From: Bryobacteraceae bacterium
GTDB lineage: Bacteria; Acidobacteriota; Terriglobia; Bryobacterales; Bryobacteraceae
Assembly (NCBI GenBank): GCA_023384675.1
Contig: JAHDVK010000034.1
Coordinates: forward strand, 1-54,010
Length of the DNA stretch: 54,010 nucleotides
Direction: 5' to 3'
In this document: positions 5,336-24,485 of the stretch, piece by piece
Numbering within the stretch: the stretch's first letter is position 1
Layout: each line of letters starts with the position of its first letter
Translations under genes and position numbers: made by a program
Notes under the pieces: generated by a model
Databases searched by the model: none
What the model was told of the DNA's origin: nothing
The model's input: the letters and a program-made list of their open reading frames with translations, nothing else

Positions 5336-5363
5336 CCAGCCCATCGGCCATTGACAGGCGGCA

Positions 5364-5383: not shown

Positions 5384-5405
5384 GTACGATCGAGCCTGGA
5401 TTCAT

Positions 5406-6626: not shown

Positions 6627-6709
6627 GAGCAAAGTTTGCAGCCCAGGCGGCGCGAAAACGAGTAGCGCGGGGTAGAATTAACGGTAGCGCCACCGCGTAA
6701 CCCATTGAA

Positions 6710-8569: not shown

Positions 8570-9015
8570 TCCGCTTTTTCATCGCGCTCCTGGCCCTGGC
8601 GCTGCCCGCGGCCGCGCAGCTTCGCGAGGTGACGATCGAGATCCAACCCACCGAGTGCGTTTCCTGCACCGAATCGCTGCCGGCGCGGATGCAGCGCGTG
8701 CGGGGGGTTGCGCACGCCAATATGCGGGAGGCGCCGGCGCGGGTTGTGATCGAACTTGAAGCGGACAACCGCGTCCGGCTCACGCGGTTGCTGGATGTGG
8801 TGCGTCAGGACGGCACCGGGATCACTGCGGTCGCCGTGCATGCCGCCGGCGAGGTGTTCGACGAGGGCGGATGGCGGTTCCGGATTCTGCCGGGAGACCA
8901 GTCGCTTGAATGGCGCGGCCCCGCACCCGCAAAACCGGGCAAAATCGCGCTGGAAGGACGCATTTTGCCGCCTTTTGACGCCATTTCTGTCGAAAAAACG
9001 GAGGTCCAGCCATGA
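8566..9015 (+). CDS. Exported HMA-like CxxC protein
   Basis: A 149-residue protein with a signal peptide (residues 1-18, ending AAAAQ-like LPAAAQL). The next ~70 residues look like a heavy-metal-associated ferredoxin fold, with a CVSC pair where HMA domains bind Cu(I) or Zn(II), followed by a beta-rich tail. The spacing from the first strand (VTIEIQPTECVSC) agrees with HMA. It is coupled to both neighbours by four-base ATGA overlaps. A periplasmic metal or redox role is inferred; no enzymatic domain is visible. Confidence 0.6.
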   Translation: MIRFFIALLALALPAAAQLREVTIEIQPTECVSCTESLPARMQRVRGVAHANMREAPARVVIELEADNRVRLTRLLDVVRQDGTGITAVAVHAAGEVFDEGGWRFRILPGDQSLEWRGPAPAKPGKIALEGRILPPFDAISVEKTEVQP

Positions 9016-9827: not shown

Positions 9828-9864
9828 ATCGCGCAGCCGTGTTCTCACGGCTTACAGTGAAGGT

Positions 9865-10446
9865 ATGAAGATTTTCTGGCTGCTTTTATTCCTGCCTGTG
9901 CTGGGGGCGGCGCAGAGTTTTCACTGGGGCTTCCTGGGCGGCACCGTGATGCAGTCGCCTTATATCCCGCAGATCAACGAAGGAGTGGCCTTCACGCCCG
10001 GCGGGCTGGTGGAATTCCGGCTGCCGGGCCGCTTTGCCATCGAGGCCAATGCGCTCTACCGCAGGCAAGGCTATACCGGCCCGTTTCAGATCGACGAGAC
10101 GCCGAGTGACCTGGTGGGCGCGCTCACCAGCCGCTCGAACATCCTCGATGTGCCGGTGCTGGGCAAATACCGCCACCCGGTGCAAGACTTCATTAATGTC
10201 TTTCTCACCTCCGGTTACGTGCGGCGCTGGCGCAACGAGAGTTTTCGCGTCAGCGGCACGCGCGAGACCACCGGCCCCATCCCGCAATTCCCGAGCGAGC
10301 GTACGTCGCAAAGCGGCTTCGCCATCGGCGGCGGCGTGGAACTCGATGGCGGCACGCTGCGGATGTCGATCGGCTACCGCTATTCGCGCCTCGGCGAGTT
10401 CCGCAGCGACAAGTCGCACGACCTTCTGGTGAGCTTTATCTTCTAG
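9865..10446 (+). CDS. Outer-membrane beta-barrel protein (porin-like family)
   Basis: A 193-residue protein beginning at the ATG at 9865, with a signal peptide (MKIFWLLLFLPVLGAAQS). The mature part alternates amphipathic strands typical of small 8-stranded barrels (FAIEANALYRR, FINVFLTSGYVRRW, LRMSIGYRYSRLG) and ends in a terminal aromatic (LVSFIF), the usual BAM recognition feature. The family resembles the PorT/OmpA-like barrel proteins found in many Acidobacteriota. The RHS island begins 28 bases after its stop. Confidence 0.72.
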   Translation: MKIFWLLLFLPVLGAAQSFHWGFLGGTVMQSPYIPQINEGVAFTPGGLVEFRLPGRFAIEANALYRRQGYTGPFQIDETPSDLVGALTSRSNILDVPVLGKYRHPVQDFINVFLTSGYVRRWRNESFRVSGTRETTGPIPQFPSERTSQSGFAIGGGVELDGGTLRMSIGYRYSRLGEFRSDKSHDLLVSFIF

Positions 10447-10473
10447 CCTGGCAATGCGGGTTCCGCTCGCCCC

Positions 10474-12399
10474 TTGACGAAGACCTACACCGGCGGCGCA
10501 ACCCCGAGCGTCACCTACACCTACGACGGTCTCCGGCTCAGCTCCGTCGCCACCTCGGGCCGCATCGCCACCAGCACCCAATCCACCGGCGGCGTCCCAT
10601 ACTCCTTCGCCTACACGTACTATAAAGACGGGAGCCTCAAGTCGGTGACATATCCTTCCGGACGCCTCATCGAATACCCCAGCCTCGACCGGGCGGGCCG
10701 CGTCCTGAAGGTCCAGGGCACGCTGGCCGGCACGACCACGGAGTATGCCAAGGCGGTCACCTACAACGCCAGCGGCCAGATGAGCTCGCTCACCTTCGGC
10801 AATGACCTGATCGAGCGTTGGGACTACAACCCCAGGCGCCTGCAGCCCTGGCAAATCCGCCTCGGCACGGCTACCGTTGACGACGCCCGGGGCCGCTGGC
10901 AGTTCGGCTACTGCGCCGGCCTGAACTACAACCAGGACTGCGCCACCAACAACGGCAACGTGATGCACCAGCGCATCCTCCCGCTCAACATCTATCAGAC
11001 CTACGCCTACGACACCCTCAACCGCCTCTCGCTGTTCGAGGAGAAGGCCACCAACACGGCGCCGGCGTGCGCGGCCGGCGGCTCCACCCCCTGCCGCGCC
11101 TACGGCTATGACAACTGGAGCAACCAGTTCGTCACCCAGGCCAACGTCGTCACGCGCCACTCCTTCACCCCCGCGGCCGCCTCGAATTTCGACGCCGCCA
11201 ACCGCCTCATCATCCAGGGTTCGACCTACGACCCCGCCGGCAACCAGACCGCGATCGGCGGCTACACCTTCACCTACGACGCCGAAAACCGCCTGAAATC
11301 CTCGGCAATCGGCGGCAATACGACCACCTACGCCTACGACGGCGAAGGCCGCCGCGTGAAAAAGGGCAACGAAATCTACGTCTATGACGCCTTCGGCAAC
11401 CTCGCCGCCGAATACGGCGGCACGCCCTTAGCCGAAGGCGGCCCCCGCTACCTCACCACCGACCACCTGGGCTCCACGCGCCTCATCACCAAAGCAGACG
11501 GCGCCGTGGACCAGCGCATCGACTACCTCCCCTTCGGCAAAGCCATCCCCAACGGAGTCAGCGGCCGCACCACCGGCCAGGGCTACCAGACCACCAACTA
11601 CCTCGACCCGCTCAAGCCCGGCTTCACCGGCAAGGATCGGGATGGAGAGACAGGGTTGGATTACTTCGGGGCCAGGTATATGTCGGCGGCCCAGGGGCGG
11701 TTTACGAGCGCGGATGCTCCGTTTGCGGATCAGAATCCCGCGGACCCGCAGAGTTGGAATCTGTACCTGTACGTCCGCAACAATCCCATCATCTTCGTCG
11801 ATCCAACCGGACAGAGGATCGAGTTGACGGGAGCTACTGAGGAGGAGCGCAGGAAGCAACTTGCGGCGATCCAGGAGGCAGTTGGGGAAGAGGCAGGACA
11901 ACGCCTCACTATTCACGGTGATAAGAAGACTGGCTTCTATGTTGGAATTACGGGAGATCTGAGTAAGTTCCGCGATATCAATCCCGTTGCTAGTGCTTTC
12001 GCTACGATCATCACGCTGCAGGAGAGTGCGAAGTTTTACCTTGTCTCAAGCATGGAGCGTATGGACATGAGCGACGGCACCGAGTACACGCTGTACGCGT
12101 TGAAGGCGACAGGTGCAACGGTGAGAGATATCGACGGCCAATTGAGGGTGTTTGTACGTGAGCCAAGGGAAGGGTATCCTCGTGATCTGCCCTTTGGAAC
12201 CAGTAGCTGGATCGGTCTCGCAAATAATCTCGGCACCACTGTTGGCCACGAGTTTGGGCATGCCCTTGAGCATATGATGGGGAGGCTCGTCGGCAGACGT
12301 CCTACCAAGGTGGAAAGCAACAATGGCTCGTTGCGGCTAGAAAACATGGTAAGGCGACTTCAAGGGGGGCCTAATGCGGCGATCAGGCTCAGGCATTAG
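10474..12399 (+). CDS. RHS unit A: truncated RHS core with M91/NleD-like zincin tip
   Basis: A 641-residue RHS protein without any N-terminal secretion or docking domain. The reading frame opens at TTG 10474 with no clear ribosome binding site, only 28 bases after the barrel gene, so the 5' part of a longer RHS gene is probably missing. Residues ~1-445 are YD repeats and the RHS-associated core, ending RNNPIIFVDPTGQ. The tip (about 449-641) carries HEFGH at residue ~592 and a downstream LENMVRR, so a gluzincin HExxH...E arrangement is plausible and recalls M91/NleD peptidases found on other RHS tips. The tip is visibly less GC-rich than the core. The next gene starts inside this one, 26 bases before its stop. 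Confidence 0.75.
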   Translation: MTKTYTGGATPSVTYTYDGLRLSSVATSGRIATSTQSTGGVPYSFAYTYYKDGSLKSVTYPSGRLIEYPSLDRAGRVLKVQGTLAGTTTEYAKAVTYNASGQMSSLTFGNDLIERWDYNPRRLQPWQIRLGTATVDDARGRWQFGYCAGLNYNQDCATNNGNVMHQRILPLNIYQTYAYDTLNRLSLFEEKATNTAPACAAGGSTPCRAYGYDNWSNQFVTQANVVTRHSFTPAAASNFDAANRLIIQGSTYDPAGNQTAIGGYTFTYDAENRLKSSAIGGNTTTYAYDGEGRRVKKGNEIYVYDAFGNLAAEYGGTPLAEGGPRYLTTDHLGSTRLITKADGAVDQRIDYLPFGKAIPNGVSGRTTGQGYQTTNYLDPLKPGFTGKDRDGETGLDYFGARYMSAAQGRFTSADAPFADQNPADPQSWNLYLYVRNNPIIFVDPTGQRIELTGATEEERRKQLAAIQEAVGEEAGQRLTIHGDKKTGFYVGITGDLSKFRDINPVASAFATIITLQESAKFYLVSSMERMDMSDGTEYTLYALKATGATVRDIDGQLRVFVREPREGYPRDLPFGTSSWIGLANNLGTTVGHEFGHALEHMMGRLVGRRPTKVESNNGSLRLENMVRRLQGGPNAAIRLRH

Positions 12400-12934
12400 G
12401 GGTCGATTCATGCGTTGGGCGATCATTCTGCCCACAATCAACGCCGTGCTGTATGTTATCTTGGTTGCGCTGTCTCGCCCGCCGGGAATCCAGCGTGTCC
12501 CTGAGCATTGGGACGTAGATTTCTACACCACAGTTCCGGAGAGAATCCTCTATGCGGTGAATGCCCCCGCCCTTTGGCTTGCTGCGGGCATAACAGATGT
12601 GTTTGGTCAGGGTGAGCGCCGACTCATCTGGTTGATTGGTGCCGTATTTGCAGTAGGCCTTTGGTGCGCAATCGGGTTGTGGCTGGACAGATTACCGACG
12701 CGCGCTCGATCTTCCCCCCGGACGTTTTGGCGCGAACGCGAGCGCCAATATGGTGCAGTCATGTTATTTCTAGTCTTGCTCTTCATAGGCTTCACATGGC
12801 CTGAGGTTTTTGCAGACTGGCAATCTTCGGCGGGTGTTGGATTCGAGACGATCGCGGGTTTGTTACTTTGGCCCATATTGGTTGGCGTTGTCGCAAGCCT
12901 CACTCTCTTTAAAGGATTACAATATCGGCGATAG
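12374..12934 (+). CDS. Partner of unit A: four-helix membrane protein
   Basis: A 186-residue inner-membrane protein. The ATG at 12374 is preceded by a strong purine tract (AGGGGGG, 12362-12369); an internal ATG at 12410 is an alternative. Hydrophobic segments are visible at about residues 15-33, 60-75, 83-103, 126-145 and 152-172. No family is recognised. The overlap with unit A and the position directly behind a toxin-like tip suggest an immunity or export partner. That is inference from position only. Confidence 0.55.
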   Translation: MRRSGSGIRGRFMRWAIILPTINAVLYVILVALSRPPGIQRVPEHWDVDFYTTVPERILYAVNAPALWLAAGITDVFGQGERRLIWLIGAVFAVGLWCAIGLWLDRLPTRARSSPRTFWRERERQYGAVMLFLVLLFIGFTWPEVFADWQSSAGVGFETIAGLLLWPILVGVVASLTLFKGLQYRR

Positions 12935-12944
12935 TGGACGTGAA

Positions 12945-14372
12945 ATGAAGCATCGTACGCGCCTCCAAGCACCTGGACTGGCCGCGCCATCACCCTTCCC
13001 CATGCTCTCGCGGATGCCCGACACTGGTGCGCCAATGTGCCACAGCGGACATGTGGCGGGGCGTGCACACAAGTATGCCAACGTCGTCACGCGCCACTCC
13101 TTCACCCCCGCGGCCGCCTCGAATTTCGACGCCGCCAACCGGCTCATCATCCAGAGTTCGGCCTACGACCCCGCCGGCAACCAGACCGCCATCGGCGGCT
13201 ACACCTTCACCTACGACGCTGAAAACCGCCTGAAGACCTCGAAACTCGGCGAAATCACCACCACCTACGCGTACGACGGCGAAGGCCGCCGCGTGAAAAA
13301 GGGCAACGAAATCTACGTTTACGACGCCTTCGGCAACCTCGCCGCCGAATACGGCGGCACGGTGTCCGCCACGGGCACGCGCTACCTCACCACCGACCAC
13401 CTCGGCTCGACACGCCTCATCACCAAAGCGGACGGCGAAGTGGACCAGCGCATCGACTACCTCCCCTTCGGCAAAGCCATCCCCAACGGAGTCAGCAGCC
13501 GCGCCACCGGCCAGGGCTACCAGACCAACAACTACCTCGACCCGCTCAAGCCGGGCTTCACGGGCAAGGACCGGGATGGGGAGACAGGGCTGGATTACTT
13601 TGGGGCGAGATACTTCTCAGGGGCGCAGGGGCGGTTCACGAGCGCGGACCCGATGCTAAATGCTGCGAAGCCCTGGAACCCGCAGACTTGGAATCGCTAT
13701 AGTTACGCCCTGAACAATCCTTTGAGGTTTCTCGACCCGAATGGTCTCTACAATCTCGAAAACACCTGCAAGGAAGACGACGAGAAGTGCCACAAGCGAT
13801 TCAAGCAGAATGCGGCGAGTCTGAAGCAGGGGCTTGCGAACCTTCAGAAACGAGTGGGCAAGATGAAGGACGGTGTTGAAAAGCAGCGGCTGCAGGCTGC
13901 TTTAGGCGCCATGGGAACCGAAAACGACAAAAACAACGTGAACGTGCAGTTTGGACCAACCGGCGATGGAGCAGCAGCCCAAGTGAATCCGTTTTACAAC
14001 GAGCAGACGGGCAAGCTGGGGTTCAATGCCATCTTTGATCCCAAGCACATTACCGGCGACACTAACGATTGGGCTATCGCTGCCGCTCACGAAGGCACAC
14101 ACATTTCCGACATAAGCGACCCGCGTTTTAGCGACCCGGCAACAACGCTCAGTCCGTTTTCGTTGGAATATCGGGGTTACCAAACGTCAGCTTGGGCGGC
14201 TTCTGCTCTCGGTCTGCCTTCGCTTTCGTATGGCAAAGGCAGGTACGAAATCTGGAATAGAAGTTGGGGGCTGGTGGACAAGACCCTCACGAACTTCATC
14301 AACAACATGAAGAATTCGGCGGGGCGGCAAACCCATCCCGAGACGATTCCTCACAATCCTTGGGGCAACTAG
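12945..14372 (+). CDS. RHS unit B: short RHS core with HEGTH zincin tip
   Basis: About 475 residues from the ATG at 12945, ten bases after the unit A partner; an upstream in-frame ATG at 12810 would overlap that gene. The first ~45 residues are unique. RHS core homology begins at base ~13079 (NVVTRHSFTPAAASNFDAAN) and ends at about residue 265 (NNPLRFLDPNG). The tip carries FDPKH, then HEGTH at residue ~382 with Asp three residues on. A downstream SPFSLEYRGY supplies a candidate third ligand Glu. Units D and F share this family, and B and D also share a C-terminal HPETxPHNPW. Predicted zinc metallopeptidase; activity not shown. Confidence 0.72.
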   Translation: MKHRTRLQAPGLAAPSPFPMLSRMPDTGAPMCHSGHVAGRAHKYANVVTRHSFTPAAASNFDAANRLIIQSSAYDPAGNQTAIGGYTFTYDAENRLKTSKLGEITTTYAYDGEGRRVKKGNEIYVYDAFGNLAAEYGGTVSATGTRYLTTDHLGSTRLITKADGEVDQRIDYLPFGKAIPNGVSSRATGQGYQTNNYLDPLKPGFTGKDRDGETGLDYFGARYFSGAQGRFTSADPMLNAAKPWNPQTWNRYSYALNNPLRFLDPNGLYNLENTCKEDDEKCHKRFKQNAASLKQGLANLQKRVGKMKDGVEKQRLQAALGAMGTENDKNNVNVQFGPTGDGAAAQVNPFYNEQTGKLGFNAIFDPKHITGDTNDWAIAAAHEGTHISDISDPRFSDPATTLSPFSLEYRGYQTSAWAASALGLPSLSYGKGRYEIWNRSWGLVDKTLTNFINNMKNSAGRQTHPETIPHNPWGN

Positions 14373-14388
14373 AGTTGGAGGTGGCGCA

Positions 14389-14817
14389 ATGGCTTGCGGA
14401 TCGGTTATCAATGTAGCGGTACTTCTGGGGATGTTCATTCCAACGTTTGCTCCCCAGCAAAGCAAGGCCGTTCTGCCAATGATCGCGGGTGGAGCGGTGC
14501 CGCTCTACCCGCCACTAGCCCGCGCTGCAAAGGTCGAGGGTATTGTGCACGTGAAGGTGACCACGGATGGAGTGAAGGTCGTCACGGCACAGGCAGAGGA
14601 TGGTAACCGGCTGTTGGCCGATTCGGCAGAGGAGAATGCGCGAACGTGGCGGTTTTCGAAACATGAACCCACTTCGTTTACAGTGACCTACCGGTTTCGC
14701 CTCGACGCCAATGCCGATCCGAATAACCCTACGGTGACGCTCCGGTTTCCGGCCGAGGTTGATGTTTCAATAGCGCCTCTGGTGCTTAGCGACCCGGCTC
14801 CCGAAATTAGAAAGTGA
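14389..14817 (+). CDS. Partner of unit B: exported TonB C-terminal-domain-like protein
   Basis: A 142-residue protein with a hydrophobic N-terminus (about residues 6-22) that could be a signal peptide or anchor. Residues ~36-95 match the TonB C-terminal fold: YPPLARAAKVEGIVHVKV, then a Gly-rich turn and ENARTWRF where TonB family members have the Trp-(K/R)-(F/Y) end. It has no Pro-rich spacer or ExbB/ExbD partner, so an energy-transducing role is unlikely. An SD-like GGAGGTG (14378-14384) precedes the ATG. It lies 16 bases after unit B in the slot the other units give to a partner gene. Confidence 0.6.
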   Translation: MACGSVINVAVLLGMFIPTFAPQQSKAVLPMIAGGAVPLYPPLARAAKVEGIVHVKVTTDGVKVVTAQAEDGNRLLADSAEENARTWRFSKHEPTSFTVTYRFRLDANADPNNPTVTLRFPAEVDVSIAPLVLSDPAPEIRK

Positions 14818-14867
14818 TGCCTTCTGGTGTCTGAACCACGACGGTACGAGTAGTATCGCGCGGCGCG

Positions 14868-16649
14868 ATGCCTGCGGCGTCAGTCGCCTCTGCCACAACC
14901 ATCGTGCCGATCGTTCGACGCAGGCGGTGGTTTTCGTATCCTGGAATCTATAAAGACGGGAGCCTCAAGTCGGTGACATATCCTTCCGGACGCCTCATCG
15001 AATACCCCAGCCTCGACCGGGCGGGCCGCGTCCTGAAGGTCCAGGGCACGCTGGCCGGCACGACCACGGAGTATGCCAAGGCGGTCACCTACAACGCCAG
15101 CGGCCAGATGAGCTCGCTCACCTTCGGCAATGACCTGATCGAGCGTTGGGACTACAACCCCAGGCGCCTGCAGCCCTGGCAAATCCGCCTCGGCACGGCT
15201 GCCGTTGACGACGCCCGGGGCCGCTGGCAGTTCGGCTACTGCGCCGGCCAGCCCTACAACGAGGACTGCGCCAGCAACAACGGCAACGTGATGCACCAGC
15301 GCATCCTGCCGCTGAACCTCTACCAGACCTACGCCTACGACACCCTCAACCGCCTCTCGCTGTTCGAGGAGAAGGCCACCAACACGGCGCCGGCGTGCGC
15401 GGCCGGCGGCTCCACCCCCTGCCGCGCCTACGGCTATGACAACTGGAGCAACCAGTTCGTCACCCAGGCCAACGTCGTCACGCGCCACTCCTTCACCCCC
15501 GCGGCCGCCTCGAATTTCGACGCCGCCAACCGGCTCATCATCCAGGGTTCGACCTACGACCCCGCTGGCAATCAGACCGGCATCGGCGGCTACACCTTCA
15601 CCTACGACGCCGAAAACCGCCTGAAAACCTCGAAAATCGGCGACAACACGACCACCTATGCCTACGACGGCGAAGGCCGCCGCGTAAAGAAGGGCAACGA
15701 AACCTACGTCTACGACGCCTTCGGCAACCTCGCCGCCGAATACGGAGGCACGGCGGCGGCCGCGGGCACGCGCTACCTCACCACCGACCATCTGGGCTCG
15801 ACGCGCCTCATCACCAAAGCGGACGGCGAAGTGGACCAGCGCATCGACTACCTCCCCTTCGGCAAAGCCATCCCCAACGGAGTCAGCGGCCGCGCCACCG
15901 GCATGGGCTACCAGACCAGCAATTACCTCGACCCGCTCAAGCCCGGCTTCACCGGCAAAGAACGGGATGCCGAGACGGGGCTGGATTACTTCGGGGCTCG
16001 GTATATGTCGGCGGCGCAGGGGAGGTTCACGAGCGCGGATGCCCCGTTCGCGGATCAGATTCCCGCAGACCCGCAGAGTTGGAACCTCTTTGCCTATGCC
16101 CGAAACAACCCGCTTCGGTACGTCGACCGAGACGGCCGCTGTGTTTCTGGCGTTGACACGATCGTGTGTCTGGCCGTTGGCTGGGCCGCCACCGAGCTCG
16201 CCGAAGGGGTATGGAAAGTGAAAGCGAGCATGGATGAGCTCCAAGTGGTCGCCGACAATAATGCGGCGGCGATGGAGAATTTGGCAAAGGCCTGTCTTGA
16301 TGGAGGAAGTGATTGCTCAGCGGCAATCGAAACCGCCGCGCGGACATCGCAAAACCTGCGCAGTCGAGCGATGAATACGATCGGCGGGGCGCTGATGTTT
16401 CCGGGCACTTTCTTTGGTGGCTTTCCTCCCACGAGCAAGCAGGATTTGGTAGTTGCAGCACTAACAAACCGAGCTCTAAACGAGAAACTGGCTAGGGCCA
16501 AGGCCGCCGAATCCGAAAGACGCAGGAATGAGCAAGAAAACGTAAGAAGGCAAGAGCAGGACAGGCGGGCTAAGGAAGCGGAAGAAAAACGCCGCCGCGA
16601 GGAAGAAGAGCGAACCCGCAAGGAAAAGGAAAAGGCGGGGAAAGGGTGA
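14868..16649 (+). CDS. RHS unit C: RHS core with charged helical tip, no zincin motif
   Basis: 593 residues from an ATG at 14868, though translation could instead begin at GTG 14973 inside the core, which has GGGAG upstream. RHS core homology begins at base ~14949 and ends at RNNPLRYVDRDG. The tip (about residues 424-593) has a hydrophobic segment (DTIVCLAVGWAATELAEGVW), a Gly-rich helix, and then ~50 residues almost entirely of Arg, Lys and Glu, a probable single helix or coiled coil. No HExxH is present. I recognise no toxin family; the charged tail might be a tether. The stop overlaps the next start. Confidence 0.62.
   Translation: MPAASVASATTIVPIVRRRRWFSYPGIYKDGSLKSVTYPSGRLIEYPSLDRAGRVLKVQGTLAGTTTEYAKAVTYNASGQMSSLTFGNDLIERWDYNPRRLQPWQIRLGTAAVDDARGRWQFGYCAGQPYNEDCASNNGNVMHQRILPLNLYQTYAYDTLNRLSLFEEKATNTAPACAAGGSTPCRAYGYDNWSNQFVTQANVVTRHSFTPAAASNFDAANRLIIQGSTYDPAGNQTGIGGYTFTYDAENRLKTSKIGDNTTTYAYDGEGRRVKKGNETYVYDAFGNLAAEYGGTAAAAGTRYLTTDHLGSTRLITKADGEVDQRIDYLPFGKAIPNGVSGRATGMGYQTSNYLDPLKPGFTGKERDAETGLDYFGARYMSAAQGRFTSADAPFADQIPADPQSWNLFAYARNNPLRYVDRDGRCVSGVDTIVCLAVGWAATELAEGVWKVKASMDELQVVADNNAAAMENLAKACLDGGSDCSAAIETAARTSQNLRSRAMNTIGGALMFPGTFFGGFPPTSKQDLVVAALTNRALNEKLARAKAAESERRRNEQENVRRQEQDRRAKEAEEKRRREEEERTRKEKEKAGKG
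14890..14948 (+). repeat. Leader repeat in front of unit C (copy in front of unit G)
   Basis: This 59-base stretch differs at only three positions from 23281-23339, directly before the RHS core of unit G. Both end TCGTATCCTGGAATC and then join the core at exactly the same base. Outside the block the flanks are unrelated. It resembles the D/E leaders (ACCATC, CGCAGG, TCGTATCCTG), so it may be the same promoter-like element fused to the core further downstream. Confidence 0.6.
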
Positions 16650-17212
16650 TGGCGTTACCACTCCAGGCGACTCGTGCACAAGTGAGAACATTATCCGCGC
16701 TAATTCTGTTGTTGATCATTCTTGTATTCTGGCCAGGGCGACATCAATTACTGGCCATTCTCACACCTGAACGGGCTGTATCCACGGGACGGTTGGAGGT
16801 TATGATCCCACGCGGCTGGCAGGTCCGGACAGGCGAAACCGAGATCGACGCTTGGCGGACCGCCTTGTCTGTTTTCTCTGCAGGGCAGGTCACCTCGATA
16901 AGGGTGACGACTGTGAAAGAGCGACTAGCTGGGGAAAACCTTGCAGAATATGAATGGAGAGAATTGACTGAGGTTGTATTTGGCGAACGGGGTTACGCTC
17001 AGTCTGTCGAGCGCACATTCGTCGGCCGCTCCGGTCGAGTACTCTGCCTCGAAGCTTCAAGCCAGCGTTCAAGCCACACGACAGTCAGCTCTTGCTTCAT
17101 CGCTGACGATTCGCTTCTCGGCGTATTCGATGGCAATATTGAGCATTTACCAACCTTTTACGACGTCATGAAGACATGCATAAAGCGTAGCGCCAGCCCT
17201 GCCGTTCCGTAG
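16649..17212 (+). CDS. Partner of unit C: single-pass membrane-anchored protein
   Basis: A 187-residue protein starting at ATG 16649, which overlaps the unit C stop as TGATG; GTG 16646 is the alternative. The upstream run GGGGAAAGGG could serve as the SD. Residues ~12-34 form one hydrophobic helix (LSALILLLIILVFWPG), which leaves a ~150-residue domain outside the cytoplasm. That domain has a beta-rich segment (GRLEVMIPRGWQV), two cysteines (CLEAS, SSCFIAD) and a third late (TCIKR). No family recognised. Partner status is inferred from the overlap and the matching position in the other units. Confidence 0.55.
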   Translation: MALPLQATRAQVRTLSALILLLIILVFWPGRHQLLAILTPERAVSTGRLEVMIPRGWQVRTGETEIDAWRTALSVFSAGQVTSIRVTTVKERLAGENLAEYEWRELTEVVFGERGYAQSVERTFVGRSGRVLCLEASSQRSSHTTVSSCFIADDSLLGVFDGNIEHLPTFYDVMKTCIKRSASPAVP

Positions 17213-17224
17213 AGTAGCCTGCAT

Positions 17225-17308
17225 GGTCAGACGCATGAGACCATCGGCGCTGATGCCGCTTCCGACATACCGCGGCCGTCGTAAGCTGGGGAGCAGGAGG
17301 ATAGAATC
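17225..17308 (+). promoter_or_regulatory. Leader of unit D, colinear with the unit E leader
   Basis: An 84-base block beginning 12 bases after the unit C partner stop. It is colinear, without gaps, with 19270-19353 in front of unit E. Shared stretches include GGTCAGAC, ACCATC, GCGCTGATGCCGCTT and CGCGGCCGTCGTA. It ends in AGGATAG, a good SD, seven bases before the start codon. A -10-like TAAGCT (TATCCT in E) sits 16 bases after a TTCCGA/TTGCCG, so it may be a promoter. The promoter reading is inference; the conservation is seen directly. Confidence 0.55.
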
Positions 17309-18724
17309 GTGAATCCGGTGCCCGAAGCCTGCGCTCTCCTGCTCGATCCGTTGCCCTACGGCTATGACAACTGGAGCAACCAGTTCGTCACCCAGGCCGA
17401 CGTCGTCACGCGCGATGTGGAGACGCCTTCGGCCGCCTCGAATTTCGACGCTGCCAACCGGCTCATGATCCAGAGTTCGACCTACGACCCCGCCGGCAAC
17501 CAGACCGCGATCGGCGGCTACACCTTCACCTACGACGCCGAAAACCGCCTGAAAACCTCGAAAATCGGCGAAATCACCACCACCTACGCCTACGACGGCG
17601 AAGGCCGCCGCGTGAAAAAGGGCAACGAAACCTACGTCTACGATGCCTTCGACAACCTCGCTGCCGAATACGGAGGCACGCCCTTAGCCGAGGGCGGCCC
17701 CCGCTACCTCACCACCGACCACCTCGGCTCGACGCGCCTCATCACCAAAGCAGACGGCGCCGTGGACCAGCGCATCGACTACCTCCCCTTCGGCAAAGCC
17801 ATCCCCAACGGAGTCAGCGGCCGCGCCACCGGCCAGGGCTACCAAACCAACAACTACCTCGACCCCCTCAAGCCCGGCTTCACCGGCAAGGATCGGGATG
17901 CGGAGACGGGGCTGGACTACTTCGGGGCCCGCTATTACGCGGCGGCGCAGGGACGGTTCACGAGTGCGGACCCGTTGCTGAACTCAGGTAGGCCGTGGCT
18001 GCCGCAGTCTTGGAATCGTTACGCCTATGCGCTGAGCAACCCGCTGCGGTTCACGGACCCAACCGGTCTGTACGAGTGGGGCGCTTGCAGCGGCACAGAT
18101 AAGGAATGCGCGTCGTATAAGAAGGCCTTCAAGGACTCCCTTTCGCATCTCAAAATGGCCCGAGACTCTTTCGGCAAGAAGTCTCGCGAGTATAAGCGGT
18201 TGGACGCTGCGCTGGAAGCGTACGGGAAGGAGGGAAAGAAAAACGGCGTCAGTGTTGGCTTCGGCGATCTTGGTGACACCGCTGCGGGGCGAACGACGCC
18301 CGCGGGTGACCTGAAATCGTTCAGCGTCATGTTCGATCCGGCAAAGATGAGCAAGAACGATACAGCTAAGTGGCTGGCCATCGACTCTGGGCATGAGGGC
18401 ACGCACGTGGATGATTTGAGGCAGATATTCTCGGGGGCGGTCGAGCAACTATCACCTTTTTCAGTCGAATACCGGGGCTACGAAAGCTCAGCTTTCGTGT
18501 TCCAGGGCCTATTCACGCCCAGCCCTTTCGCGAATCAAGGAACCGTCATGGGTGGCGTAACTTCACGAACGCTTGGGTACGGCGGGAACATCATCTGGAA
18601 TACGTCTTGGGGAGCTGCGGACAAGAACGCTCTGCAGTGGAGAGACGCTGCGATCACCAACACCGTGATCCAGCGATATGGGCACCCGGAGACAACGCCG
18701 CACAACCCATGGGAGAACCAATGA
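17309..18724 (+). CDS. RHS unit D: short RHS core with HEGTH zincin tip
   Basis: 471 residues starting at GTG 17309. The start is supported by AGGA seven bases upstream and by colinearity with the TTG start of unit E (both read M-x-P-x-P). Sixteen unique residues precede the RHS core, which enters at YGYDNWSNQF (base ~17357) and ends at LSNPLRFTDPTG. The tip has FDPAKM, then HEGTH at residue ~362 followed by SPFSVEYRGYESSAF with a candidate third ligand Glu. The C-terminus (HPETTPHNPW) matches unit B. Predicted secreted-effector-type zinc peptidase, with no signal peptide of its own. Stop overlaps the next ATG (ATGA). Confidence 0.75.
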   Translation: MNPVPEACALLLDPLPYGYDNWSNQFVTQADVVTRDVETPSAASNFDAANRLMIQSSTYDPAGNQTAIGGYTFTYDAENRLKTSKIGEITTTYAYDGEGRRVKKGNETYVYDAFDNLAAEYGGTPLAEGGPRYLTTDHLGSTRLITKADGAVDQRIDYLPFGKAIPNGVSGRATGQGYQTNNYLDPLKPGFTGKDRDAETGLDYFGARYYAAAQGRFTSADPLLNSGRPWLPQSWNRYAYALSNPLRFTDPTGLYEWGACSGTDKECASYKKAFKDSLSHLKMARDSFGKKSREYKRLDAALEAYGKEGKKNGVSVGFGDLGDTAAGRTTPAGDLKSFSVMFDPAKMSKNDTAKWLAIDSGHEGTHVDDLRQIFSGAVEQLSPFSVEYRGYESSAFVFQGLFTPSPFANQGTVMGGVTSRTLGYGGNIIWNTSWGAADKNALQWRDAAITNTVIQRYGHPETTPHNPWENQ

Positions 18725-19260
18725 CACTGCCGAAATGCGCCTTGACAGTTCTCTGTGGGTTGACCCTGTTTGGCCAGTCGAGTGGCGGGACCTGTCCGCT
18801 GGACAGTGCAGAGAATGGCGACGTGGTGAAGCTCCGTGGCGAGGCGTTCTCTGCGGGGCACGACACGTTCATTCGACCAACTGCCTGTGCATTCGACCCA
18901 GCCAATCGAGTCATTCTGGTTTGGGCGGATGATCCGTTACTATCAACGAACAAAGCCAGCGTCCGGAGGGACGCCGACTTCACGGAGTTCACTCGCCTCC
19001 TGAAAGCGACCTTTCGCCTTCCTCCCAATGCTGGAGGCATTGGCCAGGCTCGATACCGTGTCTTTGCCGACTTTGAAGGTCGGCTGGAAGTCGCACCGTC
19101 TACCGGATTGAAGCGCGATCCCAGAAGCAAGAAGGTGGTGCGTCTCGAAGGCTTCGGGCATCCGATGCCTTTCACGCGGTTTAGACTGGTGGCAACCGGT
19201 GTGTCGCGGATCGAATCCGAAGAACAATCAGTCAAGCCCGATGCCAAAGAGCCGAAGTAA
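18721..19260 (+). CDS. Partner of unit D: exported hypothetical protein
   Basis: A 179-residue protein starting at ATG 18721, inside the ATGA shared with unit D. A Sec-type signal seems present (residues 1-18, MTLPKCALTVLCGLTLFG). The mature part has two cysteines (about 24 and 55), a beta-rich core (RYRVFADFEGRLEV) and a polar C-terminus. No family recognised. The overlap and export signal fit a periplasmic partner for the unit D tip; immunity is not shown. Confidence 0.6.
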   Translation: MTLPKCALTVLCGLTLFGQSSGGTCPLDSAENGDVVKLRGEAFSAGHDTFIRPTACAFDPANRVILVWADDPLLSTNKASVRRDADFTEFTRLLKATFRLPPNAGGIGQARYRVFADFEGRLEVAPSTGLKRDPRSKKVVRLEGFGHPMPFTRFRLVATGVSRIESEEQSVKPDAKEPK

Positions 19261-19269
19261 TGCTGCCGG

Positions 19270-19353
19270 GGTCAGACCTTCGGCACCATCAGCGCTGATG
19301 CCGCTTGCCGCAGGTCGCGGCCGTCGTATCCTGAGAAGCACTAGGATAGGGTT
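19270..19353 (+). promoter_or_regulatory. Leader of unit E, colinear with the unit D leader
   Basis: Begins nine bases after the unit D partner stop and runs gap-free against 17225-17308. The candidate -10 here is TATCCT, preceded after 16 bases by TTGCCG, and the SD is AGGATAG before TTG 19354. The leaders of units C (14890-14948) and G (23281-23339) share ACCATC and TCGTATCCTG with it, so all four are related. Confidence 0.55.
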
Positions 19354-20832
19354 TTGAGTCCGGCGCCCAACACTTCTTCGCTCAAGATCGGACCGCCGAC
19401 CTACGCCTACGACACCCTCAACCGCATCTCGCTGTTCGAGGAGAAGGCCACCAATACGGCGCCGGCGTGCGCGGCCGGCGGCTCCACCCCCTGCCGCGCC
19501 TACGGCTATGACAACTGGAGCAACCAGTTCGTCACCCAGGCCAACGTCGTCACGCGCCACTCCTTCACCCCCGCGGCCGCCTCGAATTTCGACGCCGCCA
19601 ACCGGCTCATCATCCAGAGTTCGGCCTACGACCCCGCCGGCAACCAGACCGCCATCGGCGGCTACACCTTCACCTACGACGCCGAAAACCGCCTGAAAAC
19701 CTCGGCAATTGGCGGCAATGCGACCACCTACGTCTACGACGGCGAAGGCCGCCGCGTGAAAAAGGGCAACGAAATCTACGTCTATGACGCCTTCGGCAAC
19801 CTCGCCGCCGAATACGGCGGCACGCCCTTAGCCGAAGGCGGCCCCCGCTACCTCACCACCGACCACCTGGGCTCCACGCGCCTCATCACCAAAGCAGACG
19901 GCGCCGTGGACCAGCGCATCGACTACCTCCCCTTCGGCAAAGCCATCCCCAACGGAGTCAGCAGCCGCGCCACCGGCCAGGGCTACCAGACCAACAACTA
20001 CCTCGACCCCCTCAAGCCCGGCTTCACCGGCAAGGATCGGGATGCGGAGACAGGGCTGGATTACTTCGGGGCGAGGTATCTTGCGGCGGCCCAGGGACGG
20101 TTTGCGAGCGCGGATGCACCTTTCGCGGATCAGTTCCCGGAGAATCCTCAAAGTTGGAATCTGTACAGCTATGTTCGCAACAGGCCGCTACTTTACGTTG
20201 ATCCAACCGGAGAAGCAGTGGAGTTGGTCGGAGACGAAGAGGAGCGGACGAGGCTGCTCAACGGCCTGATACGGGCAGTCGGACCCAGGGCTGGCGCCTA
20301 CCTGTACCAGAACAGGGTTGAGACGAAGAATAGGGATGGCAGCGTCTCGACTAGATACTTCGTCGGCGTTCTCGCTGGCGGCCAAAGTGGAAAAGGTCCC
20401 GACTTCGGAAGCATAAATGAAGCCTCCATGAACCTTGCGGCGGTGATCGCGGACAAACAGATTGGGCAAGTCGCATTGGTGAACGCGTTTGCACCGTTCG
20501 TCTATTTCAGCCCAACTGGAGCGCAAACAAGACTTGACAGTGAATACGTCGGACTAACCTCCCCCTTTAACGAGCCGAGCCCAATTAAGGTGTGGGTTCT
20601 GAATCCAGACAGCGCGCCATACCTTTCGGTGCCCGAGAAGATGGCAGGGAACTATCCAGGTGTGCGTGATTTGTCGACCGTGATGATGCACGAACTGGGA
20701 CACATGATGTGGCAGATGGATAAGAAAGCTGGGAGGCCGACGAACCCAGATCCATATGGCAATAGAAGGGCGCTTGATTACGAGAACAGTGTCCGGCAGA
20801 GAAGAGGCATGGGTACCCGGAGAGTTCACTGA
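19354..20832 (+). CDS. RHS unit E: RHS core with M91/NleD-like HELGH zincin tip
   Basis: 492 residues starting at TTG 19354 (MSPAPNTSSLKIGPP), seven bases after AGGATAG and aligned with the GTG start of unit D. The RHS core enters at TYAYDTLNRISLFEEK (base ~19400) and ends at RNRPLLYVDPTG. The tip carries HELGH at residue ~446, then GRPT and DYENSVRQ. Unit A's tip has the same order (HEFGH, GRRPT, RLENMVRR), so A and E are one family. A Glu in the ENxVR segment is a candidate third zinc ligand. M91/NleD-like assignment is by motif only. Stop overlaps the next start as TGATG. Confidence 0.75.
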   Translation: MSPAPNTSSLKIGPPTYAYDTLNRISLFEEKATNTAPACAAGGSTPCRAYGYDNWSNQFVTQANVVTRHSFTPAAASNFDAANRLIIQSSAYDPAGNQTAIGGYTFTYDAENRLKTSAIGGNATTYVYDGEGRRVKKGNEIYVYDAFGNLAAEYGGTPLAEGGPRYLTTDHLGSTRLITKADGAVDQRIDYLPFGKAIPNGVSSRATGQGYQTNNYLDPLKPGFTGKDRDAETGLDYFGARYLAAAQGRFASADAPFADQFPENPQSWNLYSYVRNRPLLYVDPTGEAVELVGDEEERTRLLNGLIRAVGPRAGAYLYQNRVETKNRDGSVSTRYFVGVLAGGQSGKGPDFGSINEASMNLAAVIADKQIGQVALVNAFAPFVYFSPTGAQTRLDSEYVGLTSPFNEPSPIKVWVLNPDSAPYLSVPEKMAGNYPGVRDLSTVMMHELGHMMWQMDKKAGRPTNPDPYGNRRALDYENSVRQRRGMGTRRVH

Positions 20833-21338
20833 TGATGTTGAAACCCCTGGGCCTGGTCCTTCCTGTGGTCTTGATGATCGGCTGCAATCCACAGGGTCCT
20901 CGCGGATCACATACGCTGGTGACGGTCCTTGATGATCTCATGTTCGTTGCGGCCACAGATCGACTGCCAGCCTCGGGGCCTGAGCCTGCTGTTTCAATGA
21001 TTCCCATGCCAGGGAAACTGGAAGCAGGCATTTTCTACGTTTTCCAAACGAGATCGCGCTTGACGACAGAGGAACTAGTGTTTCGAAGGCTCCCGATGAA
21101 GCTGCAGAGTGCTGGGGCGACAATCCGCTTCGCTCCGCAGTCTGATGCCGACATGACACAGCCGGAGGGCGATGGGGCCCCGCTGTGGAGCATAGTCTTC
21201 GAACTAGATGGTTGTCGGTACCTACTGCAAAATAGCCCGAATCGCCTGCTTGCCGAAAAGCGGAAGGATTGGCCGGCGGCTTCCAGAGATAACTATCTGC
21301 TGTCTGTGCAGCCGCCGCCACGGAATCCCTCAGATTGA
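20832..21338 (+). CDS. Partner of unit E: lipoprotein
   Basis: A 168-residue protein with ATG at 20832, or at 20835; the first overlaps the unit E stop. Residues 1-18 form a lipoprotein signal ending in the lipobox LMIGC, so Cys18 would be lipidated. The mature domain has a short cysteine-containing segment (LDGCRYLL) and no recognised family. An envelope-anchored partner for a zinc-peptidase tip is consistent with immunity, but only position supports it. Confidence 0.6.
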   Translation: MMLKPLGLVLPVVLMIGCNPQGPRGSHTLVTVLDDLMFVAATDRLPASGPEPAVSMIPMPGKLEAGIFYVFQTRSRLTTEELVFRRLPMKLQSAGATIRFAPQSDADMTQPEGDGAPLWSIVFELDGCRYLLQNSPNRLLAEKRKDWPAASRDNYLLSVQPPPRNPSD

Positions 21339-21352
21339 TTGACGGTTTCGGG

Positions 21353-21559
21353 GTTTCGGGGACAGTAGACTCAATCACCTGACTCGACCTGGGTCGCCGC
21401 AACCGCGGCCTGACGTCCTGATCTGATCCATAGGTGTGAAGAGTGCTATTTTCTTGATTTCACGTGGTGCTGCAGGCGAGGAATGCCCTTGGGCCGAGAT
21501 ACACCCCGTTGCCCGGCAGGACTGAGATTCGAGATAAAGTGATTGAGTGTCCCTGAAAC
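21353..21559. mobile_element. MITE-like element with terminal inverted repeats
   Basis: The left end (21353-21378) and right end (21539-21559) are inverted copies: GTTTC[G/A]GGGACA...CTCAATCAC agrees at 20 of 21 bases, with five extra bases in the left copy. About 160 bases lie between, with no open reading frame of note. The right repeat contains the GTG used as the start of unit F. No transposase is present, so if mobile it would need one elsewhere. Confidence 0.5.
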
Positions 21560-22671
21560 TCGTGAAAAAGGGCAACGAGATCTACGTTTACGACGCCTTC
21601 GGCAACCTCACCGCCGAGTACGGCGGCACGCCCTTAGCCGAGGGCGGCCCCCGCTACCTCACCACCGACCACCTCGGCTCGACGCGCCTCATCACCAAAG
21701 CAGACGGCGCCGTGGACCAGCGCATCGACTACCTCCCCTTCGGCAAAGCCATCCCCAACGGAGTCAGCGGCCGCGCCACCGGCCAGGGCTACCAAACCAA
21801 CAGCTACCTCGACCCGCTGAAGCCCGGCTTCACCGGCAAGGACCGGGATGGAGAGACGGGGTTGGATTACTTCGGGGCCCGCTATTACGCGGCGGCGCAG
21901 GGGCGGTTTACAAGCGCGGATGCTCCTTTTGCGGATCAGCTCCCGGCGGACCCGCAGAGCTGGAACGTCTATGCCTATGCCCGAAACAACCCGCTGCGAT
22001 TCGTGGATCCCACTGGGCAGTATGTTTGCGTGGCCATGACCAACGCCCAATGCGATTCCTTGGACCAAGCACTACAGGACGCGCAAAGCGCGGCGAATAG
22101 GATCGGAAGCCAGTACGGGAGGAACTCGCGACAGTACACCGACGCGCAGCGTGCGATTGATGCGTTCGGTAAGCGGGGTGTTGACAATGGTGTAGCTGTG
22201 ACCTTGGGATCTGTCCGTGCGGACGCAGCTGCACAAGTTGCGGTCGGCGGCAATTTGCTGCCGAAAACAGCGGATAACCCAACTGGGCAGAACATCGCCA
22301 TTACATTCGATCCGGGTCATTTCGGCTCAACAGCGGGCACAATTGTACTGGCCATTGTAGCCGCACACGAAGGCTCACATGTGGCTGATGGCTCCGAGTT
22401 CACGGCCTCCGGATTCAGCAATATGGCCAACCCGACGCAGTATATGACCGAAACTCGGGCGTTCGGCGTGACCGCAGCCATTGCCGAGGGATCTGGCGTC
22501 TACACGAATGGGTTCGCCTTCGGGGGCAATCCCCTCTGGCAGCCTGGTTGGACACCTTCACAGGTGCAGCAAGGCATCCAAAGTTTCCTTGCGGCGCCTG
22601 GGCTTTATGGCTACACCCCTAAGTCTCAGGGTGGAAGGGCCTTCAGCAAGCGGAACAAGGTGGTCCGGTGA
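21547..22671 (+). CDS. RHS unit F: minimal RHS core with HEGSH zincin tip
   Basis: 374 residues opening at GTG 21547. The first five codons lie in the right repeat of the upstream element, so the start looks acquired by insertion or deletion; the SD is weak. The RHS core enters only at VKKGNEIYVYDAFGN (base ~21562) and ends at RNNPLRFVDPTG. The tip has FDPGHF, then HEGSH at residue ~274, then MTETRAFG with a candidate Glu ligand. It belongs with the tips of B and D but has a divergent C-terminus. It may be silent unless transcribed from upstream. Stop overlaps the next start as GTGA. Confidence 0.68.
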   Translation: MSLKLVKKGNEIYVYDAFGNLTAEYGGTPLAEGGPRYLTTDHLGSTRLITKADGAVDQRIDYLPFGKAIPNGVSGRATGQGYQTNSYLDPLKPGFTGKDRDGETGLDYFGARYYAAAQGRFTSADAPFADQLPADPQSWNVYAYARNNPLRFVDPTGQYVCVAMTNAQCDSLDQALQDAQSAANRIGSQYGRNSRQYTDAQRAIDAFGKRGVDNGVAVTLGSVRADAAAQVAVGGNLLPKTADNPTGQNIAITFDPGHFGSTAGTIVLAIVAAHEGSHVADGSEFTASGFSNMANPTQYMTETRAFGVTAAIAEGSGVYTNGFAFGGNPLWQPGWTPSQVQQGIQSFLAAPGLYGYTPKSQGGRAFSKRNKVVR

Positions 22672-23249
22672 AGAAGACCTCGGCTAGTTCTTTCATTTTG
22701 ATCTGTCTTGTTTCTGGAGTGCTGTCAGGGCAGTCGCCCGATCGAGCGGGCTTTCTGATAGATGCAGATCGTCCCTTCGTAGATATAGTGTTTGATCGGA
22801 CCGGCCCCTGGATCCCTGTGTTCGATGGAGAATCGTCACATGGACTTTGGCTCACATTACGCAACAATTGTGCATATCCGATCATGGTTGACACGATCAC
22901 CGGACCGAAACAGAATGGTGTGTTGCTCGTTCACGAGATTCGAGAAGTCATTGGTGGCTTTCCGCATCCCCCAAGCGATAGTCGAGTGCCGCCGCCACTT
23001 AGCAATACCTATCGTGGGAGAGACATTCGGAATTCCATGCAAGTGCTGCCCGGAAGAACGCTACAATTTGGAATGCCTATCGAACACATTACCCGATCCA
23101 CCTGGGTGAGGATTGAGTTCGACATTCTCTTTCCAAAACGACCATCCGGCAGGCAGCCGAGGATGTATCTTGATTACTACTGGATTGACCTGCCGAAAGA
23201 AGCGCAAGCCCTTTCTGAGCAGGTGACATCAGCGCTGAAGGCGAAGTAG
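22668..23249 (+). CDS. Partner of unit F: exported hypothetical protein
   Basis: A 193-residue protein starting at GTG 22668, sharing GTGA with the unit F stop. The signal peptide is clear (MKKTSASSFILICLVSGVLSG). The mature part is rich in beta-strand and aromatic residues (WLTLRNNCAYPI, YLDYYWIDLP). No family recognised. The overlap matches the arrangement in units C, D and E. Confidence 0.6.
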   Translation: MKKTSASSFILICLVSGVLSGQSPDRAGFLIDADRPFVDIVFDRTGPWIPVFDGESSHGLWLTLRNNCAYPIMVDTITGPKQNGVLLVHEIREVIGGFPHPPSDSRVPPPLSNTYRGRDIRNSMQVLPGRTLQFGMPIEHITRSTWVRIEFDILFPKRPSGRQPRMYLDYYWIDLPKEAQALSEQVTSALKAK

Positions 23250-23280
23250 CAGGCGTGCGGCGCGCGCTGGGTCCACGCCC

Positions 23281-23339
23281 CTGCCACAACCATCGTGCCC
23301 ATCGTTCGGCGCAGGCGTTGGTTTTCGTATCCTGGAATC
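23281..23339 (+). repeat. Leader repeat in front of unit G
   Basis: Second copy of the unit C leader, with three mismatches over 59 bases, and joined to the same base of the RHS core. It begins 31 bases after the unit F partner stop. Confidence 0.6.
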
Positions 23340-23774
23340 TATAAAGACGGGAGCCTCAAGTCGGTGACCTATCCTTCCGGACGCCTCATCGAATACCCCA
23401 GCCTCGACCGGGCGGGCCGCGTCCTGAAGGTCCAGGGCACGCTGGCCGGCACGACCACGGAGTATGCCAAGGCGGTCACCTACAACGCCAGCGGCCAGAT
23501 GAGCTCGCTCACCTTCGGCAATGACCTGATCGAGCGTTGGGACTACAACCCCAGGCGCCTGCAGCCCTGGCAAATCCGCCTCGGCACGGCTACCGTTGAC
23601 GACGCCCTGGGGCGCTGGCAGTTCGGCTACTGCGCCGGCCTGAATTACAACCAGGACTGCGCCAGCAACAAGGCGGAGTTCAGTGACTGGAACCCAATTG
23701 ACGCATTACGAACGGTGACTGGCCCCCAATGCCCGAAAGGCGCGAGTCGGGTTTCTCTGCCTGCAAGCCTTTGA
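23295..23774 (+). pseudogene. RHS unit G: tipless RHS core remnant
   Basis: The frame reads through ~110 codons of RHS core that is almost identical to units A and C. It leaves homology at base ~23671 (after QDCASNK) and ends 34 codons later in unrelated sequence. It has no core end, tip or partner gene. The break lies ~12 bases before the first arm of the nested inverted-repeat element at 23683, so loss of its 3' part is probably linked to that element. Regarded as a broken copy. Confidence 0.7.
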
Positions 23775-23945
23775 TTTGTCTTTGGTTATGAGAAATCGTG
23801 ACGTTTTGCCGGCGTGATCTGGGGGCGGCTTTGCAGAGCCACAGAGACCGGGCCATCAAATGCATCACCCTTAAGTGATTGAGAACAGGTGGAGCTCATT
23901 GGGGGCCAGTCGCCGCCCGGGTCAGGGGAATTGGGGTCCAGTCAC
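23683..23945. mobile_element. REPIN/MITE-like element with two nested inverted repeat pairs
   Basis: The outer arms are 23683-23699 (GTGACTGGAACCCAATT) and 23929-23945, matching 16 of 17 when inverted. The inner arms are 23715-23731 (GTGACTGGCCCCCAATG) and 23897-23913, also 16 of 17. The two arms on each side resemble each other, so each end is a doublet, as in REP doublets. The 165-base middle has no gene. It marks the right edge of the RHS island; the rest of the 243-base gap before guaD shows nothing else. Confidence 0.55.
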
Positions 23946-24017
23946 CTAATGCCCCTACTGCGAGCATTCCACCCCACACCGATCAGCGTTCCAAACGAAT
24001 AGCAGCCCCTCCAAACC

Positions 24018-24485
24018 CTAATACCCCACCCGCCCCTCCGAAGCCAGCCAGAGCCGGAACGGCTCTTCCCCTTCCCCGCCCAGCAGCCGCATGCTGGGCA
24101 GCGACCGCTCATCCGGCGGCAGCGGCACTTGCCGGTACAGGAATTCGTCGTCGAAACCGGCGCGCGCCGCATCCTGCCGGGTGGCGGCGTAAAACAACGC
24201 GTCGAGCCGCGCCCAATAGATCGCAGCCAGGCACATCGGGCACGGCTCGCAACTCGAATAGATCGCCGCGCCGCGCAACTCGAACCGCTCAAGCCTTTGG
24301 CAGGCGTCGCGGATGGCGACGATCTCGGCATGGGCTGTCGGATCGTTCGCCGGGGTCACCTGATTGACCCCCTCGCCGATCACCTTGCCGTCCATCACCA
24401 CCACCGCCCCAAACGGCCCACCCTTGCCGAAGCGGGCATTGCCCGCCGCCAGCCGCAAAGCGTGGCGCAGGAAGTCTTCGTGCAT
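24018..24485 (-). CDS. guaD: Guanine deaminase (cytidine/deoxycytidylate deaminase fold)
   Basis: A 155-residue cytosolic enzyme that converts guanine to xanthine and ammonia. Zinc ligands are His52 in TAHAEI and Cys82/Cys85 in CEPCPMC; Glu54 is the proton shuttle. The C-terminal segment AGFDDEFLYRQV, typical of the Bacillus-type GuaD with its domain-swapped tail, separates it from tRNA adenosine and cytidine deaminases. Length fits the family. It stands alone downstream of the superoxide dismutase gene, with a strong hairpin between them. Confidence 0.82.
   Translation of the reverse strand: MHEDFLRHALRLAAGNARFGKGGPFGAVVVMDGKVIGEGVNQVTPANDPTAHAEIVAIRDACQRLERFELRGAAIYSSCEPCPMCLAAIYWARLDALFYAATRQDAARAGFDDEFLYRQVPLPPDERSLPSMRLLGGEGEEPFRLWLASEGRVGY

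Follow-up and report, generated by a model that had tools for sequence, protein, structure and literature searches.

A probably parentless array of orphan RHS toxin-tip modules, with partners of hydrophobic N-terminus, in a Bryobacteraceae genome

What is a row of RHS toxin tips doing in a stretch of DNA that holds no full-length RHS gene to carry them? The question is raised by contig JAHDVK010000034.1 of a Bryobacteraceae bacterium (assembly GCA_023384675.1, 97% complete), which was analysed whole, as 54010 bases without any N, and is called the window in what follows. An earlier note on this DNA had taken the RHS core fragments present here for cassettes with starts of their own, made for expression as short proteins and possibly amounting to a novel form of RHS arsenal. 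The explanation which we regard as likely is a different one, namely that orphan RHS modules, each a toxin tip with its immunity gene, form an array without a parent gene at an exact empty site, where they would keep immunity genes and reusable tips in store. In general terms, the array looks more like a leftover toxin/antidote store than a weapon of a new kind.

Seven RHS-core stretches, here named units A to G, were found between 10468 and 23671, with pairwise identities of 82-98% and all on the + strand, as are the leaders, tips and partner genes described below; in this the earlier note was right. In units A to F the open frame continues beyond the conserved end of the core to encode a tip and is followed by an adjacent small partner gene (6/6), and this succession of core, tip and partner, repeated in the same direction, makes six modules of an orphan rhs-CT/rhsI array. 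Unit G keeps 333 bp of core (23339-23671) and is then cut, with no tip. The model TIGR03696 (Rhs_assc_core) matched above its cutoff in all six tipped units, which places them among the RHS/YD-repeat polymorphic toxins, and a full-length RHS cage with an N-terminal secretion part was found in none of them, their lengths being 374-641 amino acids. The cores of the tipped units measure 457-1344 bp (A, the longest entry, 10468-11811; B, 13074-13745; C, 14948-16136; D, 17297-18067; E, 19379-20211; F, 21561-22017), the RHS homology of A starting at about 10468, ahead of its open reading frame start at 10474. The motif NP....D.[TDN]G closes the core in five tipped units and an RP variant of it in E, after which the tips, of 170-218 amino acids, differ. 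The GC content is 0.646 in the cores, near the 0.66 of the flanks, 0.56 in the tips and 0.55 in the partners. In the explanation preferred here, six displaced RHS 3' ends (core remnant plus tip) each keep their partner, and the seventh is a remnant. In the same region, no tRNA genes were found, Rfam gave no match at gathering scores over 9-25 kb, and PADLOC gave none on the six units and partner B.

A parent gene was sought with a profile of N-terminal halves built from six full-length relatives. It matched nothing in the window, where the earlier note had likewise seen no full-length RHS gene, and, at 1e-10, nothing in the genus relatives G001-G003 or in the host's own assembly, where a second array is cut at a contig end. 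Among eight genomes, matches were obtained in three, whole in G015 (whose own sequence is in the profile) and partial in G011 and G053. The named relatives recovered with the core amount to 39 loci, mostly from Bryobacterales and other Acidobacteria. Loci L055 and L118 show the classical layout, a full-length RHS gene and then an orphan, unlike the window array, which does not stand downstream of a full-length rhs. In L118 (Terriglobus albidus DSM 26559, 4838-10954) a 2038-amino-acid full-length RHS-like frame with three carbohydrate-binding (CBM60) stretches precedes the orphan tip. G011 is assembled in two contigs; its locus L045 has three orphan units and, over 19 kb, no N-terminal match, and L046 and L047 contain partial N-terminal RHS matches. 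Several orphan RHS arrays, each with between two and four units, are found at these three loci. Likewise, L052, on a 9-kb contig, holds two units with no N-terminal match. The host genome itself carries a second, divergent orphan array (L012, own contig C42:122000-132514, at 7424-10475 and 6031-6756), with 49% identity to the core of A; about 270 bp past its last partner gene lies a gene that looks transposase-like and, judged by eye, resembles the Y1_Tnp genes discussed below. In L108 (8377-11881) the orphan RHS units face both ways, the left pair being on the - strand and the right pair on the + strand. Locus L126, with an 85% local match, turned out to contain short broken pieces. The full-length relatives start, as judged by eye, with signal-peptide-like stretches, and because of these starts a parent RHS would likely have been exported by the Sec route.

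The place of insertion could be defined by comparing the locus in relatives, a check which the earlier note had proposed. In the same-genus genome G001 the site is empty: the outer-membrane gene directly adjoins an aldo-keto reductase-like gene, followed by pheT (both names taken from reading the sequence), and no RHS lies between. In the window the corresponding outer-membrane beta-barrel-like gene (9865-10446, + strand, Pfam OMP_b-brl just under cutoff) is followed by RHS homology 22 nt past its stop. Homology to G001 ends at 10452 (G001 9013), RHS begins by 10468, and the reductase-pheT side resumes at G001 9022, within 9 nt, on the end of own contig C32, which runs for another 162 bp beyond that breakpoint before it stops. 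The left border is thus a clean and exact empty-site junction. The right side borders a deaminase-SOD-GatA block; G002 and G003 have this block on one contig and the left-flank SDR gene on another. At 23675-24018 the array forms the joint of two blocks found on different contigs in genus relatives; we read this joint as a rearrangement, a mis-join being less likely. An assembly artefact in a wider sense, with the order of the units or the missing parent produced by collapse or mis-joining of repeated cores, would find some favour in this right flank, in the proximity of the C32 end to the breakpoint and in the exact runs of 222-253 bp shared by A, C and G. Nevertheless, the first 150 bp of A are unique within the set of own-genome loci examined, and the genome's other core copies start later; partners A, D, E and F, as well as the tip and partner of C, have no other copy in the loci compared; and similar parentless arrays are present in the two-contig G011. 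An artefact of this kind is, in our judgement, highly improbable.

The points at which the units enter the core are less diverse than had been claimed, since the statement that each enters at a different base proved wrong for C and G. C and G have an identical core entry and a common leader (66 bp, 94% identity; 14885-14950 and 23276-23341), and D and E have a related one (84 bp, 77%; 17225-17308 and 19270-19353), so that the idea of seven unrelated entries was rejected. The leader of D, searched for in 61 genomes, was found in the host's own genome only. The leader of B (127 bp, 12954-13080) recurs with 89% identity ahead of a cut core remnant on own contig C21; this remnant (L013, C21:108000-118000, at 4585-5228) stands alone, consists of B's leader and 99 amino acids of core, and has an F-type element, of the kind described below, at most 16 nt upstream. 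Moreover, the nearest relative of a unit shifts along the core. In a permutation test on polymorphic sites, recombination was indicated for A-E and A-C-E (0/2000 in each case) and for A-F (p=0.001); it was not significant for A-C-G (10 polymorphic sites, p=0.57). D and E carry tips of different families beneath their related leader, as would be expected if tips were exchanged via the core.

Other borders coincide with mobile sequences. The core of F begins two positions past the right arm of an inverted-repeat element (F-type, 21349-21559), and the core of G ends four positions before a second one (G-type, 23675-23954), both being bounded by inverted arms. The F-type element gave 25 matches and the G-type 14, self-matches and multiple pieces included; the former has a full-span relative of 71% identity on C1 and many partial copies, and the latter a copy of 84% identity on C50. 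An F-type element adjoins a Y1_Tnp (PF01797) gene and partial G-type copies lie on both sides of another, on C42. Both are dispersed and bounded by inverted repeats, and relatives of each adjoin Y1 transposase genes; we call them transposase-linked repeats and presume them to be of the sort named RAYT/REP. The GTG start of F sits inside the terminal inverted repeat of such an element. Given the shared leaders and the elements at the entry of F and the end of G, the entries look inherited or accidental: some appear to have come along when cassettes were duplicated, and a mobile repeat appears to have set one or more of them. As a separate observation, 3 of the 19 places of F-type elements in the own genome are no more than 4 kb from an RHS locus, where 0.17 would be expected; this was noticed post hoc and with hand-typed place lists.

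The same elements could be taken as signs of a dead remnant, in which the parent has been lost and a decaying array is being invaded by repeats; such elements mark the cut of G and the start of F, and a further cut remnant is present on C21. Decay is nevertheless unlikely in view of the six tips and six partners that are all open, the HExxH motif kept in five tips, the ratio of nonsynonymous to synonymous substitution (dN/dS) of 0.14-0.45 across 15 pairs of cores, and the Shine-Dalgarno (SD) sequences of the partners, which are mostly good.

These start signals also bear on whether the toxin halves are made at all. SD strength was expressed as a percentile among 1903 start-like triplets of the + strand, lower values being stronger. 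At the listed starts the toxin units scored 0.44 (A), 0.12 (B), 0.80 (C), 0.011 (D), 0.23 (E), 0.30 (F) and 0.99 (G), A thus having no notable SD, and the partners 0.009 (A), 0.001 (B), 0.040 (C), about 0.10 (D; bracketed by hand, -7.3 where -7.2 corresponds to 0.099), 0.117 (E) and 0.023 (F), the six partners being better than the seven toxin units (one-sided Mann-Whitney p=0.007). The sole strong SD among the toxin units is that of D, with AGGAGG 8 nt ahead of GTG 17309 (-10.7 kcal/mol, best 1.1%); E, with a TTG start at 19354, is unremarkable (-5.6 kcal/mol, 23rd percentile), and the own SD which had been credited to both units is accordingly upheld for D and not for E. Partners D and E lie near the best 10-12%. 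If the best in-frame start of each toxin unit is scored instead, the contrast becomes moderate, since A, C, F and G reach about 0.10-0.11 at starts within the core and B, through an alternative in-frame ATG at 12945, comes into the best 4.8% (0.048). A scan for sigma-70-type promoters gave no excess (2 found, 3.3 expected) and one for terminators gave 15 against 14.0 expected. Expression as short proteins is not borne out as a general design of the array, even if the ATG of B favours that claim, and the proposal that each unit has its own designed start was rejected in view of the SD percentiles, weak except in D, and the shared leaders. In the portion of the source available, orphan tips are described as mostly devoid of initiation signals and standing beside expressible immunity genes (PMC3150448), a pattern which the window resembles.

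An alternative which deserves consideration at this point is that the cell makes short tip proteins from the units in its cytosol, where they would form internal toxin-antitoxin pairs as in the Rhs orphans of Salmonella, for which the available part of the report describes internal promoters and a low-level product (PMC7043789). The strong SD of D ahead of an in-frame GTG, the ATG of B, the frame kept by D and E beneath their related leader and the open frames of all six tipped units would fit such a role; the lack of a strong SD at the listed starts in 6 of the 7 toxin units and the absence of a promoter excess speak against it. Furthermore, all six partners have hydrophobic N-termini, and an exported partner would miss a cytosolic toxin; an internal role is for this reason less likely, and we consider it improbable.

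Returning to the array as a store of tips and immunity genes, the nature of the tips is informative. The six tips had been described as different from one another, each with a partner gene; the partner is indeed there in 6/6, and the tips fall into one family with A (11812-12399) and E (20212-20832), another with B (13746-14372), D (18068-18724) and F (22018-22671), and the tip of C (16137-16649), unrelated to both. HExxH is present in 5/6 window tips (not in C, for which no family was found) as compared with 9/84 tips recruited by the core. In the B/D/F alignment the H, E, H and a downstream E are kept in all 19 rows (13 of the 21 non-window tip-profile matches, 3 core-scan loci and the 3 window tips), an invariance partly due to the choice of rows. 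A predicted structure of the D tip, judged from the model and a list of similar structures, has a zincin-like fold, so that the B/D/F tips combine HExxH, a third ligand and, from the D model, a zincin fold; the D tip is thereby modelled as a zincin without a Pfam family. The A/E tips carry the HExxH motif and may be zincins as well; 1 of 4 aligned rows (L056) lacks an exact HExxH. The five HExxH tips are probably metal-dependent proteases.

Database searches placed these tips in no known family. Pfam gave none above cutoff on the six tips and none at 0.01 on that of D, with two isolated matches among the 19 B/D/F members; the absence of a match to Tox-MPTase or other Pfam models is compatible with distant kinship. 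Searching PDB sequences with the tip profiles gave best E-values of 0.5 (B/D/F) and 0.88 (A/E, a metallopeptidase named myroilysin), and the D tip had no match in plasmids. The A/E profile, run against 347 genomes of the phylum, matched in the own genome only; A/E relatives are nevertheless present in L056 and L108. In relatives, tips of the B/D/F type terminate RHS frames of 1416, 1810 and 1829 amino acids.

All six partners have a hydrophobic N-terminus, that of C included, even though its tip lacks HExxH: A (12374-12934, with a strong SD), B (14389-14817, TonB_C-like), C (16646-17212), D (18721-19260), E (20832-21338, with a lipobox-like motif) and F (22668-23249). Within the array they are mutually dissimilar despite similar tips. 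The tip and partner of B recur together in L101 (79% and 73% identity), distant relatives of partner B stand beside the tips of L147, L155, L163 and L166 (that of L155 having no match to the tip of B), and a distant relative of partner F adjoins the L148 tip. Among pairs of similar tips, 29 of 182 have similar partners, one pair being near-identical. In a sample of 101 tips (106 minus 1 near-duplicate and 4 without a partner open reading frame), in which the 27 HExxH rows comprise 5 from the window, 9 brought in through their core and 13 through similarity of the tip, a hydrophobic partner N-terminus accompanied 27/27 HExxH tips and 28/74 others at a threshold of 2.0, 24/27 and 27/74 at 2.2, and 23/27 and 24/74 at 2.4. 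Hydrophobicity stands here as a proxy for a signal predictor, the most hydrophobic start having been chosen in every row alike. Counted by partner family, with a gap of at most 60 and excluding also 3 rows whose 'partner' is the next RHS unit, the figures were 12/12 and 20/41 (p=0.0015). We infer that the partners are immunity proteins, and their hydrophobic N-termini suggest that the HExxH tips are zincins acting in the envelope, with exported or membrane-bound immunity proteins.

A bolder proposal can be formed from the same data, according to which such loci would be free-standing islands of envelope-directed zincin toxin/immunity modules, spread and kept without an RHS delivery gene, and in which transposase-linked repeats would have set the borders, moved or split cassettes and given F its start. 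We consider it improbable. In the explanation preferred here, an array of displaced modules kept as a store, the partner genes would be translated and protective, and most toxin halves would be unmade or barely made. The cores would provide homology for swapping a tip with its immunity gene among units and also, when a full-length secreted RHS is present, for joining both to it. The different entries would be historical breakpoints, left by cassette duplication with the leader and by insertion of transposase-linked repeats, and not purpose-built starts. Without a present parent, protection by the partners would be the likelier current benefit.

Several points weigh against this explanation. 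The array on C42 is truncated by the end of its contig, so that a parent could be concealed there, and the strong SD of D, together with the alternative ATG of B, means that some short proteins may be made. The block at the right border lies apart from the left flank in G002 and G003, and the exact runs among A, C and G render the order of the units uncertain if the assembly is from short reads. The dN/dS below 1 could mean that the short cores are still under selection as protein, although the signal may predate their displacement from full-length genes. As to the tips, 8 tip-profile matches fell outside the B/D/F alignment, 4 with HEGxH and 4 without it (one a partial match). As to the partners, 13 pairs are similar without a tip match, of which 6, by reading, have the next RHS unit as 'partner' on both sides; and when tips are grouped into families, the export rule comes down to 4 HExxH families, all with exported partners (4/4), against 17/30 others, in a manual count.

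Should the explanation hold, orphan RHS tip/immunity arrays can stand parentless at a site whose empty form can be defined, and this supports the immunity half, or a reservoir role, as the reason for their retention. The link between HExxH tips and partners with hydrophobic N-termini is, in addition, a simple, testable rule, which would place an RHS toxin family in the periplasm and provide it with immunity proteins. To our knowledge, such loci are little described in this phylum. In one open library searched by full text, and judged mostly by title, nothing was found on parentless RHS arrays with zincin tips, nor on transposase-linked repeats at RHS cassettes. The notion of a novel form of RHS arsenal is, for the most part, not sustained, since orphan arrays and orphan-only species are already published, Gilliamella apicola having been reported with orphans only (PMC8125069).

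The comparison with known systems, drawn from the available parts of the works cited, shows both the kinship of the array and its particular features. Its closest counterparts are the orphan rhs-CT/rhsI modules (PMC3150448, PMC3967940), which are likewise displaced RHS 3' ends with a core remnant, a tip and an immunity-like gene, the toxin being mostly without initiation signals, the immunity gene expressible and the core a source of homology for recombination. Unlike the window array, the examples published there stand downstream of a full-length rhs, and the cores of the window are long and have recombined among themselves. In Salmonella, recombination can place an orphan tip on a delivering RHS (PMC3967940). 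Gilliamella apicola is reported to possess orphan Rhs toxin domains alone, as the window has orphan tips and no full-length Rhs, and defence by the linked immunity genes has been proposed; it belongs, however, to another phylum and a type VI secretion setting, and no single array of zincin tips is described in the part of that source at hand (PMC8125069). The Tox-MPTase and related zincin toxin domains (PMC3482391) are also HExxH metallopeptidase tips behind RHS repeats, whereas the six window tips have no Pfam match above cutoff; for Tox-MPTase1-3 the accessible text gives no immunity partner, and here a partner with a hydrophobic N-terminus stands beside each HExxH tip counted. As in the internal Rhs toxin-antitoxin of Salmonella (PMC7043789), short orphan tips could be made inside the cell, but the partners of the window look exported or membrane-bound and the start signals are mostly poor. 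Lastly, the immunity-gene arrays of the Vibrio type VI secretion system (PMC5361080) offer a parallel for displaced immunity genes as a protective, exchangeable store; those arrays consist of orphan immunity genes, whereas the window also keeps six intact toxin tips.

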